Of a DNA stretch of 48,731 nucleotides, positions 25,451-29,565 are shown one piece after another. Position 1 is the stretch's first letter, and every line of letters starts with the position of its first letter. Origin of the DNA: Candidatus Gastranaerophilales bacterium (GTDB taxonomy: Bacteria > Cyanobacteriota > Vampirovibrionia > Gastranaerophilales > Gastranaerophilaceae); contig CALUQN010000018.1 in assembly GCA_944322945.1 (NCBI GenBank), forward strand, positions 1-48,731, read 5' to 3'. A model generated the notes under the pieces. It worked only from the letters and a program-made list of their open reading frames with translations. It was not told the DNA's origin and did not search any database. Made by a program: the position numbers and the translations under genes.

Positions 25451-26251
25451 TTAAGACAGTCTTTGAACGGATATTTCAGCCGTATTGTCCAGCGAATTTG
25501 CATAATCGACAAGGGCCTTAAATATAAACGGATGCAGCTTTCCTTCCGCAACATCTTTGTGAATAATTGTCAAAGCTTCTTCTTTAGTCATCTTTGCTTT
25601 GTATGAGCGAGCCTCCCGCAGGGCGGAATACTTATCAGCAACCGAAACAATCTGCTGGTTTAAGTCTGCAGTAAAATCTTTATCCGCAAAAGGATAACCG
25701 CTTTTTAACTGGTTTTGGTGATGGTAACGGATTAAATTCAAAGTAGCAGTATTTATATCAGTTGTTTTCAGCAATTGATAACCGAGTTCTGAATGCAGGT
25801 GCATTATATTTGTTTCTTTCGGGGAAAGCTTTCCGTCTTTATATAATATTTCTTTTGGTATTAAAACTTTTCCTAAATCGTGAAGATATGCGGCATCCGT
25901 GACAGCCTGCTCGTTTACTCTGTCACGAAGACTAAACGGCAGATTTGTTATAATTCCGGATGCTATATTTTTCGTATCAGTGCCGTGAGTATTCAGAACC
26001 TGTTTTAATCCTGATATATTCACCTCCAGCGGCACTCCTTCTTTTCTGAGGATTTTAACAATATCAGGGTTTGACTTAATCATATTGACAATAGCAGCTT
26101 CTGATGTGTAGCGGTTAATTGTGGTACTTTGAAAAGTATCACCGTCGATATTCTGGCCGAACCTCACATATCCGTTATGAAGATTTGGATTGATTGAATA
26201 ATTTTGGTTTACGCTGCTGACGCCGAGCAGCCTTACAATATCTATTCCCAT
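25451..26251 (-). CDS. HD-GYP-type phosphodiesterase-like protein
   Basis: A 266-residue protein with an HD-GYP domain from about residue 85 to 230. HD-GYP enzymes usually hydrolyse cyclic di-GMP. Visible metal-site residues are H89, HD at 124-125 (YLHDLGKVLIP), H153 (HSELGYQLL), HH at 177-178 and the GYP tripeptide at 185-187; the usual HHE(R/K)xDGxGYP is altered to HHQNQLKSGYP, so activity is uncertain. The first ~45 residues are not a receiver or sensor domain but contain VRFGQNIDGDTF. The ATG has no good ribosome site and is directly preceded by an in-frame TAG. It converges with the wall hydrolase and diverges from the acetylation genes. Confidence 0.82.
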   Translation of the reverse strand: MGIDIVRLLGVSSVNQNYSINPNLHNGYVRFGQNIDGDTFQSTTINRYTSEAAIVNMIKSNPDIVKILRKEGVPLEVNISGLKQVLNTHGTDTKNIASGIITNLPFSLRDRVNEQAVTDAAYLHDLGKVLIPKEILYKDGKLSPKETNIMHLHSELGYQLLKTTDINTATLNLIRYHHQNQLKSGYPFADKDFTADLNQQIVSVADKYSALREARSYKAKMTKEEALTIIHKDVAEGKLHPFIFKALVDYANSLDNTAEISVQRLS

Positions 26252-26452
26252 CTACGCTTTCACACAAAAATTCTGACACTACTACCTTATATTTATAAAG
26301 TAATTTTTTCGGAAAAAGTTGCTATTTTTTGTCCTTTTGTTAACAAACGTAAAATAATATCGAGAAATTTTGATAAAACTCCTGAAACGGTAATAGACAA
26401 CGTTGATTTTTATAATATACTTGACATGTTAAGAATACATTGCGGGGAATAT

Positions 26453-28171
26453 ATGATTAAGAAGAGAGTAATAATTTCAACTGTTTTGACGCTACTTGCG
26501 GTATGGGGGAGCCATAACTATTGGCTGAATGTTAAACCGATTGACCTGTCGTTCAAAATCAATGGCGATAATATTCAACAGGTTGAAGCAAGGCTCTACA
26601 AATACGCAAACGAAAACTCTGAAAAGTTCTATTACCATAGAACTGATGTAAATGTCAAAGAGCACGTGAAATTCTCTTTCAAAAAACCGTATTCTCCTAA
26701 ACGTCTGAAACTATTGATATCACTGAATTCCCTTGAGGGGGGGGGGGATTTATGCGAGTTTAACCTGAAACATAACAAGATTAAGCTCAATGATTTTGAA
26801 AACTTCTCCGCCAAAGGCGCCACTCTCAAGGTTAAAGATAACAAGCTCTATTTCTCGCCGACTGATAAAAATGTCCTAATCTCGTATAACAAAAAATTAA
26901 AACTCAACGCAAGTACCAAATTTGATTTTCTTGTTCTTTTAATCATTGCGATTATTACATATCTTTTTGCTTACAAAATCACTTCCTACCTTGCGGATTT
27001 CAAGATTAACAAAGACAAATCTAGAATTGACATCGTATTTTTAGCGATATTTTTCTTAATTTTATTTATACCGATGATGAGAATTTCCAACGAAAAAACT
27101 TCCAAATCCGAAAACAGAACTCTTGCTGTTTACAAGCCGCTTTTTAAATCAAAAGGCAGTCTCAACTTCAACTACGGCAAAGACTTCGACAACTGGTTCT
27201 CTGACAGGTTTAATCTCAGAGAAAAAATCATCTTTGCACAGCATCAGGCTAATTATAAAGTAAGAAGCAACTTTGTTGAAATGAACAATAAATTTATTTT
27301 CAAAAATAATGGATATATAATAAATAATTATGCCAAAAACTTTATACCGTTTACAGATGAAGAATTAGAACGTTATAGCAGAAATATTTATAAATTTAAC
27401 AAATTCTGTGAGGACAACAATATTAAATTATATGTTGTTATCCCGCCATCACAACTCTCTTATAATCAAAAATATATACTAACATATCGCGACCTACACA
27501 AGGAAGATAGAGTTGTGAAATTTATTGATTATGCAAAGAAAAAATATAATTTGACAAATATAATCTTTCCTGAAAACGAGTTACGCAAAAATGAAAACGG
27601 TGAATTAATCTATTTTAAAACAGACCACCACCTAACTGACTACGGCTCGTATATACTTTACAAACACTTAATCAATACGATGAAAAAAGATTTACCATTA
27701 CTAACAATTACGCAGCAAAAGGATTTTAAAATTTACAAAAGAACACTTACCAGATACGAATATCATCGCAATTTCAATGAAGGCTGTGAATATATAAATG
27801 CAAAGATAAAGGCACCGGAATTACTTAAAACAGAATATATTTATTACGATTACAAATACCCGGAAAAGATTAAAATAACAGGGACGAAAGCGCATAAAAC
27901 TTTTACCAATAATGACGGGCATTACAAGTTATTGATAATGGGCGATTCTTACATGGAAAACCTTCTGTATTTTCTTAATACCAGCTTTTATAAGATTGAA
28001 AAATACAGAAGTAATATTGATCAATTGAAAAATCCAAAAAGAAAATCTGAATTTGAGATAAAAGCTTATGAAAAAATTATCAAAGACTATAAGCCGGACG
28101 CAATAATACTTATCAAACATTCCGGCACATTAGACGCAATAAAAGACATGTACCCGGAGGAGGTTGACTAA
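26453..28171 (+). CDS. AlgJ/AlgX-like polysaccharide O-acetylation protein with G11 tract
   Basis: A 572-residue membrane protein with an N-terminal helix (about 5-22), a ~130-residue extracytoplasmic domain, two more helices (about 155-178 and 190-208) and a C-terminal SGNH/AlgX-type catalytic domain. The DHH-type motif TDHHLTDYG is near residue 390 and the GDS nucleophile block LIMGDSYMEN near 496. Such proteins pass acetyl groups from an MBOAT partner to a surface polysaccharide. GGGGAA lies just before the ATG at 26453; an open frame further upstream lacks one. Eleven consecutive G residues at 26737-26747 fall at codons 95-98, in frame here, and look like a phase-variation tract. The MBOAT gene follows with a TAATG overlap. 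Confidence 0.85.
   Translation: MIKKRVIISTVLTLLAVWGSHNYWLNVKPIDLSFKINGDNIQQVEARLYKYANENSEKFYYHRTDVNVKEHVKFSFKKPYSPKRLKLLISLNSLEGGGDLCEFNLKHNKIKLNDFENFSAKGATLKVKDNKLYFSPTDKNVLISYNKKLKLNASTKFDFLVLLIIAIITYLFAYKITSYLADFKINKDKSRIDIVFLAIFFLILFIPMMRISNEKTSKSENRTLAVYKPLFKSKGSLNFNYGKDFDNWFSDRFNLREKIIFAQHQANYKVRSNFVEMNNKFIFKNNGYIINNYAKNFIPFTDEELERYSRNIYKFNKFCEDNNIKLYVVIPPSQLSYNQKYILTYRDLHKEDRVVKFIDYAKKKYNLTNIIFPENELRKNENGELIYFKTDHHLTDYGSYILYKHLINTMKKDLPLLTITQQKDFKIYKRTLTRYEYHRNFNEGCEYINAKIKAPELLKTEYIYYDYKYPEKIKITGTKAHKTFTNNDGHYKLLIMGDSYMENLLYFLNTSFYKIEKYRSNIDQLKNPKRKSEFEIKAYEKIIKDYKPDAIILIKHSGTLDAIKDMYPEEVD
26737..26747 (+). repeat. Poly-G tract of 11 in the acetylation gene
   Basis: Eleven G residues in a row within AT-rich coding sequence, encoding GluGlyGlyGlyAsp. 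The frame is open at this length; a change of one or two G residues would truncate the protein near residue 100 and probably reduce translation of the coupled MBOAT gene. Confidence 0.95.
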
Positions 28172-29565
28172 TGCTGTTCAGTTCAATGACATTTGTATTT
28201 ATGTTTTTACCGGTAGTTTGCGCGCTGTATCTTTTGAGTAACAAGCGGTTTCATAACCCGATACTGCTTGCGGCAAGCATAATTTTCTACGCGTGGGGCG
28301 AGCCTAAATACCTTGCGATTATGCTCCTCACTATCCTTATAAACTACGCCGGCGCTATTGCCGTAGAAAAATTCAACAGCCATAAAAAATTCTGGCTCAT
28401 CTCTACAATTGTCGTTGATTTGGGGCTTTTGATTTATTTTAAATACTTTAACTTTATTATTGATAACATCAATAACCTTTTCCACGCACACATTAACGCG
28501 CTTGATGTAATTATGCCTATCGGAATTTCTTTCTATACATTCCAGGCGCTGTCTTATGTTATTGACGTATTTAGAGGGGACTGCAAGGCGCAGAAAGATG
28601 TCTACAAACTTGCGCTCTACATCTGCCTCTTCCCGCAGCTGATTGCAGGCCCGATTGTGAAATACCATGATGTCGCAGAACAGATTGAAGATAGAGAAGT
28701 CAATTTTGACAAAGTAAATATAGGAGTCAAAAGATTTATCATAGGGCTTTCTAAAAAAATGCTCATCGCAAACACCCTCGGCGCCATTGCTGATAAAATC
28801 TTCACCCAGCCTGCCGATACTTTCTCTCCGCTTGTTGCGTGGCTTGGAAGTATTTCTTATACATTGCAGTTGTATTATGACTTTTCCGGATATTCTGATA
28901 TGGCAATAGGTCTCGGGCTGATTTTCGGGTTTCAGTTTATGGAAAACTTCAACTACCCGTATATTTCAAAATCCATCACGGAATTTTGGAGAAGATGGCA
29001 CATCTCGCTTTCAACATGGTTTAAGCAGTATCTGTATATTCCGCTCGGCGGCAACAGAATCAACAAAAACAGAACTTATATTAACCTCGGAATTGTATTC
29101 CTCCTGACAGGTGTCTGGCACGGTGCAAGCTGGAACTTTGTGTTCTGGGGCTTATGGAACGGATTTTTCATAATATTAGAAAAAATGACCGGCTGGCACA
29201 ACGATACCGACAAAGTGCCTGTCAAAATTCTAAAACATATTTATACGATATTCGTGTTTGTACTCGGCTGGGTAATGTTCAGAGCGGACAACATGACATA
29301 CGCGTGGACTTACCTCAAAAATATGTTCGGGCTCGTTCCTGTCCACGATATAACTTACACAATGATGTATTATGTCGATAATGTTGAAATTGTAACTCTG
29401 CTTGCCGGAATATTATGCGCAATGCCGATTTTCAAAAACATGATTTATGTTGAAAATAAAGCCGCAAAACTCGCTGTTAATGTATGGCTTATGGTGTTGT
29501 TTATACTGTCATCTGCCGCAATTGCAGCATCTACTTACAATCCGTTCATATATTTCAGATTTTAG
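28171..29565 (+). CDS. MBOAT-family O-acyltransferase (AlgI-like)
   Basis: A 464-residue polytopic membrane protein of the AlgI/DltB-like MBOAT family, which moves acetyl groups across the inner membrane toward surface polysaccharides. The N-terminal LFSSMTFVFMFLPV and LAASIIFYAWGEPKY are typical, the conserved WRRWHISLSTW and YIPLGGNR lie near residues 274-292, and the catalytic histidine is in TGVWHGASWNF near residue 316. It overlaps the AlgJ/AlgX-like gene by one base (TAATG), so it depends on that gene being read through. Together they would acetylate a sugar polymer; the polymer itself is not identifiable here. Confidence 0.93.
   Translation: MLFSSMTFVFMFLPVVCALYLLSNKRFHNPILLAASIIFYAWGEPKYLAIMLLTILINYAGAIAVEKFNSHKKFWLISTIVVDLGLLIYFKYFNFIIDNINNLFHAHINALDVIMPIGISFYTFQALSYVIDVFRGDCKAQKDVYKLALYICLFPQLIAGPIVKYHDVAEQIEDREVNFDKVNIGVKRFIIGLSKKMLIANTLGAIADKIFTQPADTFSPLVAWLGSISYTLQLYYDFSGYSDMAIGLGLIFGFQFMENFNYPYISKSITEFWRRWHISLSTWFKQYLYIPLGGNRINKNRTYINLGIVFLLTGVWHGASWNFVFWGLWNGFFIILEKMTGWHNDTDKVPVKILKHIYTIFVFVLGWVMFRADNMTYAWTYLKNMFGLVPVHDITYTMMYYVDNVEIVTLLAGILCAMPIFKNMIYVENKAAKLAVNVWLMVLFILSSAAIAASTYNPFIYFRF

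Follow-up and report, generated by a model that had tools for sequence, protein, structure and literature searches.

Poly-G phase variation is known chiefly from mucosal pathogens. Strains of Campylobacter jejuni each carry 18–39 phase-variable genes, with tract lengths peaking at 9–10 (PhasomeIt survey, PMC6321876), and poly-G also occurs in chlamydial pmp genes. In Bifidobacterium breve, a pilin gene is split by a G11/G12 tract into its secretion signal and the remainder (PMC9187656), and a mixture of tract lengths at this pilus locus has been demonstrated by deep sequencing (PMC9187656). Here we consider a run of eleven G within a gene for a membrane-anchored SGNH acyltransferase of a Candidatus Gastranaerophilales bacterium (Table 1). 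We believe that this run is very likely a slipped-strand phase-variation (contingency) switch, with the caveat that slippage in living populations is inferred from comparative evidence only.

The run is read directly from the sequence of the window, by which we mean the whole 48,731-base stretch of DNA analysed (38.5% GC); apart from this run, G runs there reach at most 6 and C runs at most 5. The original prediction had reported this G11 at the position listed in Table 1, which is confirmed, and had claimed that no other G or C run exceeds about five, which nearly holds, the second-longest G run being 6. Under a first-order model trained on the window, the 2,117,873-base host genome should contain 1.5 G/C runs of at least 9, 0.29 of at least 10 and 0.056 of at least 11; the numbers counted are 15, 10 and 7. 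This genome-wide figure relies on the composition of the window, and because the fitted window contains the G11 tract itself, any error should be towards expecting too many runs. The tract is far above chance and satisfies the criterion of a homopolymer of at least 8 within an open reading frame. As to a copy of another length in the same species, a scan of viral contigs with the left flank plus G6 gave no match, and a search of genome contigs for a second sequence of this species returned only congeneric species.

In the present assembly the tract is in frame (ON). When the reading frame was computed for tract lengths of 8–14, lengths 8, 11 and 14 kept the frame and gave products of 571–573 residues, and lengths 9, 10, 12 and 13 led to a stop at 102–105 residues, before the second transmembrane helix and the entire catalytic domain. 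A change of one unit in length thus brings an early stop, as a phase-variation tract is required to do.

The full-length product shows the order of a transmembrane helix, a beta-sandwich (residues ~25–150), two more transmembrane helices and an SGNH domain (~275–570) in an AlphaFold model (mean pLDDT 74.9), in which the residues encoded by the tract form the loop between beta strands 84–91 and 98–105. It matches Pfam ALGX (PF16822) at 1.7e-06, with 28.4 bits against a cut-off of 26.5. Among solved structures, the closest sequence match is PatB1; a profile of 11 homologs finds Bacillus cereus PatB1 at 1e-24, AlgJ at 5e-06 and AlgX at 0.005. Structural comparison of the modelled SGNH domain gives Z scores of 21.4 for a DHHW protein, 20.9 for PatB1 (an alignment spanning 258–259 residues), 17.6 for AlgJ and 14.1 for AlgX. 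The columns of D391, H393 and S499 are unchanged in the alignment of the 11 homologs. The profile match, the SGNH fold, and the Ser in GDS together with D-x-H place the protein in the PatB/AlgJ/AlgX family. PatB1 is a peptidoglycan O-acetyltransferase. Transfer of acetyl, or another acyl group, to an envelope glycan is the likely function here, the activity, the acyl group and the substrate all being inferred; a surface polysaccharide and peptidoglycan are each possible substrates. The beta-sandwich resembles carbohydrate-binding modules only weakly (Z < 8), and we draw no inference from this. As for the start codon, the TTG at 26204, where a mechanical open reading frame begins, was rejected as the true start: orthologs begin at an ATG matching 26453, and in the congener G002 the equivalent ATG carries a Shine-Dalgarno sequence. 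The sigma-70-like site upstream of the gene is weak, with many chance matches in that region.

The next gene encodes an MBOAT acyltransferase (Pfam MBOAT, 8.7e-36) whose nearest solved structures are those of DltB (2e-24, with the WHG motif aligned). The profile, the conserved WHG histidine and the adjacency to the SGNH gene establish it as the MBOAT partner, making the pair one of the PatA-PatB or AlgI-AlgJ kind, with acetyl transfer inferred, and an MBOAT-like N-terminus is present at 34 of 38 homolog loci. The two genes overlap by one base (TAATG; stop at 28169–28171, ATG at 28171), as had been predicted. The further claim that both genes switch together is not secured; the overlap hints at coupling, but the MBOAT gene probably has a strong ribosome-binding site of its own, GGAGGAGG, 7 bases ahead of its ATG.

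Table 1. Coordinates of the features considered. Upper rows refer to the window, lower rows to homologs and to other genomic loci (locus or contig identifier:position).
Feature	Position	Strand	Details
Sigma-70-like site	26394..26421	+	TAGACA-16-TATACT, 10/12, 5' of SGNH gene
SGNH acyltransferase gene	26453..28171	+	Membrane-anchored, PatB/AlgJ/AlgX type, 572 aa
G11 tract	26737..26747	+	Codons 95–99, GAG GGG GGG GGG GAT = E-G-G-G-D
Asp391 and His393 codons	27623..27631	+	DxH motif (KTDHHLTDYG), catalytic by homology
Ser499 codon	27947..27949	+	GDSY motif, nucleophile by homology
GGAGGAGG	28156..28163	+	Probable own ribosome-binding site of MBOAT gene, 7 bases 5' of ATG
MBOAT acyltransferase gene	28171..29565	+	DltB/AlgI/PatA type, 464 aa
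Loop tracts, ON	Codons 91–100		G000 G11, G002 G11, G204 C11, G237 C10, G175 G12
Loop tracts, OFF	Codons 91–100		G001 G12, G036 C10, G057 G11, G293 G8, G172 G11, G231 G12, G199 G13
Tracts elsewhere in homologs	Codons 117, 128, 52		G017, G049 and G238, respectively
Tracts elsewhere in homologs	~Codon 37		G224 and G049c
Dispersed G-rich repeat	L060:703, L061:4000, L065:3905, L066:4215, L072:131		
G017 contig-end tracts	C3:4, C5:44, C10:5, C21:42, C26:90, C50:24, C56:68, C58:10		

The comparison with relatives carries most of our argument. The congeners of the host genome (G000) are G001 and G002, both Candidatus Gastranaerophilales. The G002 ortholog, at 67% identity, has G11 at the same codon and is ON. 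The G001 ortholog has G12 and is OFF, residues 1–99 and 94–570 lying in different frames of an otherwise unbroken gene. After the tract, pN is 0.175 against a pS of 0.76 between the host gene and this OFF copy, and 0.185 against 0.698 in the ON-ON pair. Synonymous sites are close to saturation in this comparison; still, the ratio is equally low in both pairs, so the OFF copy does not behave like a decaying pseudogene. A third ortholog, in G003, is truncated by a contig end.

In a family-wide search, homologs were present in 83 of 288 genomes. The loop at codons 91–100 bears poly-G or poly-C of 8–13 in 12 genomes from six genera, 5 ON and 7 OFF, a count that covers only homologs read in detail. 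States were called by scripts from reading frames and start codons, with two contig-end cases excluded; the homolog of G273 (L181), with a G17 run close to a contig end, remained unclassified, and runs of 8–9 C near codons 135–140 in four homologs were left out of the switch count. The presence of poly-C in some genomes and poly-G in others at one loop indicates repeated, independent gain. Length and phase thus differ among relatives whose gene is otherwise intact, which is what phase variation demands. Homologs without a tract exist as well (7 intact in one set and 10 of 24 in another), and the gene is intact without a tract in G042, G043, G045, G033, G065, G070 and others. The finding of a relative lacking the tract with its gene intact had been named beforehand as a refutation of the switch, and it occurs in several genomes. 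We take these intact, tract-free relatives to show no more than turnover of the tract among genera, by gain and by loss, and its absence from many homologs to mean that the gene can do without switching.

The tract is not alone in its genome. In the 2.12-Mb host genome, 8 of the 10 runs of at least 10, and 9 of the 15 of at least 9, lie inside genes, and it is precisely at the tract that the frame is either joined or broken. Six affect large secreted proteins, mostly longer than 1,000 residues (C2, C5, C8, C17:422, C21 and C26:30117; L062, L063, L064, L067, L069 and L071), and fall in the region of the signal peptide; five are out of frame, and three of the six proteins contain Chlamydia-PMP repeats (PF02415). 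A G13 tract puts an acyltransferase-3 gene out of frame (L070:4129, C26:20628), and another G13, also out of frame, sits in the leader of a prepilin gene (L073:3382, C31:3382) with the N-methylation motif PF07963 (1.6e-06). Of the nine host tract genes, just two are in frame in this assembly, those for the SGNH acyltransferase and the C21 protein. The remaining 6 of the 15 runs are intergenic or unclear, several of them inside a dispersed intergenic G-rich repeat (CCTCCCC...GGGGAGG) that contains shorter runs of 9–10 G; a similar repeat is also seen within some PMP-like reading frames. In G001 and G002 we observed runs in or just 5' of enzyme-type genes (L091, L092, L126, L130 and L135), including glycosyltransferase-like genes, a short-chain dehydrogenase and another enzyme-like gene, the targets varying by species.

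Across 60 Gastranaerophilaceae genomes there are 1,225 runs of at least 10 (0–124 each, median 7); the 22 genomes counted from sister families have 17 in total, and 17 genomes from further afield in the class have 53. A rank test gives p = 3e-7, although kin genomes are not independent. A wider draw of genomes raised the maximum to 176 (G145). Most photosynthetic cyanobacteria in this draw have 0–15 such runs, although two have 33 and 40. As a control, the interrupted pattern G5-H-G6 matched 14 times across all 99 genomes; base composition makes it about eight times rarer in expectation than the pure run, and a large excess remains.

Genes carrying the N-methylation motif number 69–104 in four tract-rich genomes, as compared with 7–30 in ten tract-poor ones. 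At 28 of 34 sites in the tract-rich G025, the tract precedes an FTLAEV-type prepilin motif and is in most cases some nine codons past the ATG; 4 are ON and 23 OFF. A leader followed by an FTLAEV-type N-methylation motif identifies these as type IV prepilin-like sister loci. Run lengths in this genome are bimodal, lengths of 7–8 G being absent while 26 runs are of exactly 10 and 6 of 11, as counted in 384 kb picked around listed tracts and not in a random sample. We observed dozens of such prepilin-like genes (FTLAEVLITLG) in this genome (L106–L125), each with poly-G or poly-C (for example L106:6631, L109:5146 and L110:2910), mostly G10 out of frame and a few G11 in frame. At L111:6232, L112:183 and L118:6108, the stretch from the poly-G to the prepilin motif is enlarged by long insertions that resemble translated dispersed repeats, which gives unusually long leaders.

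Genomes differ in their modal tract length, which is 10 in G025 and G017 and 12–14 in G012 (L097–L178), possibly as though the equilibrium of slippage varied by species. Closely related copies one G apart were found (L164 G11 and L167 G10; L151 G12 and L093 G11; L158 G13 OFF and L155/L170 G12 ON). Where the state of a sampled tract gene could be assigned, it was ON in 22 and OFF in 52, approximately the one-third ON that free drift among the phases predicts. In G017, many tracts are no more than 100 bases from the end of a contig (Table 1); tracts or repeated genes thus seem to break assemblies, and real counts may exceed those given here.

Other explanations need to be weighed. Programmed transcriptional or ribosomal slippage would work with a fixed tract length, yielding a mix of full-length and truncated protein from unchanged DNA. 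Homopolymers can induce transcript slippage, and the G025 prepilin tracts are mostly of one length (G10) in one out-of-frame phase, as this explanation would have it. However, lengths at the acyltransferase loop range from 8 to 13 and occupy both phases, opposite corrections would be needed in different genomes (+1 for G10 in G025, –1 for G13 in G012), some members are in frame, and related copies can be a single G apart. We therefore regard programmed slippage as unlikely.

Less likely still are two further readings. The runs might be neutral, mutational homopolymers or assembly artefacts without any switching role, and indeed 6 of the 15 host runs of at least 9 are not within clear genes (several belong to G-rich repeats between genes), and some G017 tracts sit at contig ends. 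Against this, the runs are 10 to 100 times more numerous than modelled and recur at particular genic sites, lengths in G025 are bimodal, interrupted G-rich patterns are rare, and the frame carries on through the tract in independent assemblies; we consider this reading very improbable. Alternatively, selection for a glycine-rich loop might maintain the run, with DNA switching merely incidental. The run does encode Gly-Gly-Gly in a beta-hairpin loop, but homologs have Pro (from poly-C) or no run at all in this position, only GGG codons are used with no synonymous changes, and out-of-frame copies are common, leaving this possibility with very little support as well.

We thus return to the phase-variation switch and consider how it would operate. 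Replication slippage would gain or lose a single G. At a length of 8, 11 or 14 the cell would make the full acyltransferase of ~572 residues; at the remaining lengths it would make a product of 102–105 residues and lose the acylation step. The glycines of in-frame variants would sit in the beta-sandwich loop, where one residue more or less should be tolerated. The acyltransferase and its MBOAT partner probably move acetyl or other acyl groups onto an envelope glycan. The locus would then be one of many poly-G switches spread through the genome in surface genes, a set characteristic of the Gastranaerophilaceae. Loss of mismatch repair was considered as a simple cause of long tracts and set aside as far as MutL, though not MutS, is concerned: MutL is present above cut-off in the host genome and in most tract-rich relatives, so hypermutability through its loss is neither needed nor seen. 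The core of the original prediction, reversible poly-G frame switching of a glycan-acylation gene, is strongly supported by the comparative evidence, in the absence of length data from within a population. Its assumption of a surface substrate is inference only, and its description of the organism as a gut bacterium is unverified for this genome.

A bolder reading, which we lean towards only slightly and only as one joint claim, is that the poly-G phasome of the Gastranaerophilaceae is among the largest known, with at most ~176 switches per ~2-Mb genome; that it consists mainly of a leader-switched, prepilin-like multigene family together with PMP-repeat secreted proteins and glycan-modifying enzymes; and that every cell shows a random mix of surface proteins and glycan acylation. 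As a family-wide trait in uncultured gut-type, non-photosynthetic relatives of cyanobacteria, switching would mean that a single consensus genome misrepresents the expressed surface, because most switch genes look broken and pass for ‘pseudogenes’. Any benefit is inferred; switching could be one way in which these organisms persist in the face of phages and immunity, an idea open to testing. For annotation, we would warn that prepilin-like and PMP-like genes in Gastranaerophilaceae have probably been split or overlooked. Existing metagenome reads suffice for an immediate test of switching.

The open-access literature that we searched holds no report of phase variation in Gastranaerophilales or Vampirovibrionia, and for phase variation together with Melainabacteria only a flagellin survey; such absence is no proof of novelty. 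The mechanism itself is known from Campylobacter, Neisseria and Bifidobacterium, while its occurrence in this lineage, on a PatB-like target and at such a scale appears unreported. The enzyme pair is like PatA/PatB of peptidoglycan and AlgI/AlgJ/AlgX of alginate in combining an MBOAT protein with an SGNH partner, in its D-x-H and Ser, and in the matching folds; unlike them, it has an extra N-terminal transmembrane helix and a tract-bearing beta-sandwich, with three predicted transmembrane helices. The host genome also has secreted proteins with PMP repeats (PF02415) whose frame is set by poly-G, and poly-G is found in the genes of chlamydial Pmp proteins too, although the match is limited to the short repeat. 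B. breve is a gut commensal with sortase pili at one or two loci per genome, whereas the Gastranaerophilaceae, for which there are no population data, have prepilin-like genes by the dozen and the acyltransferase besides. Finally, the system is like that of C. jejuni in its intragenic poly-G, its surface-modification genes, its AT-rich genome and its switching of frames, and unlike it in belonging to another phylum, in reaching up to 176 runs of at least 10 per genome (G145), in the dominance of prepilin-like leaders in the tract-rich G025, in keeping MutL and in a modal length that varies by genome.
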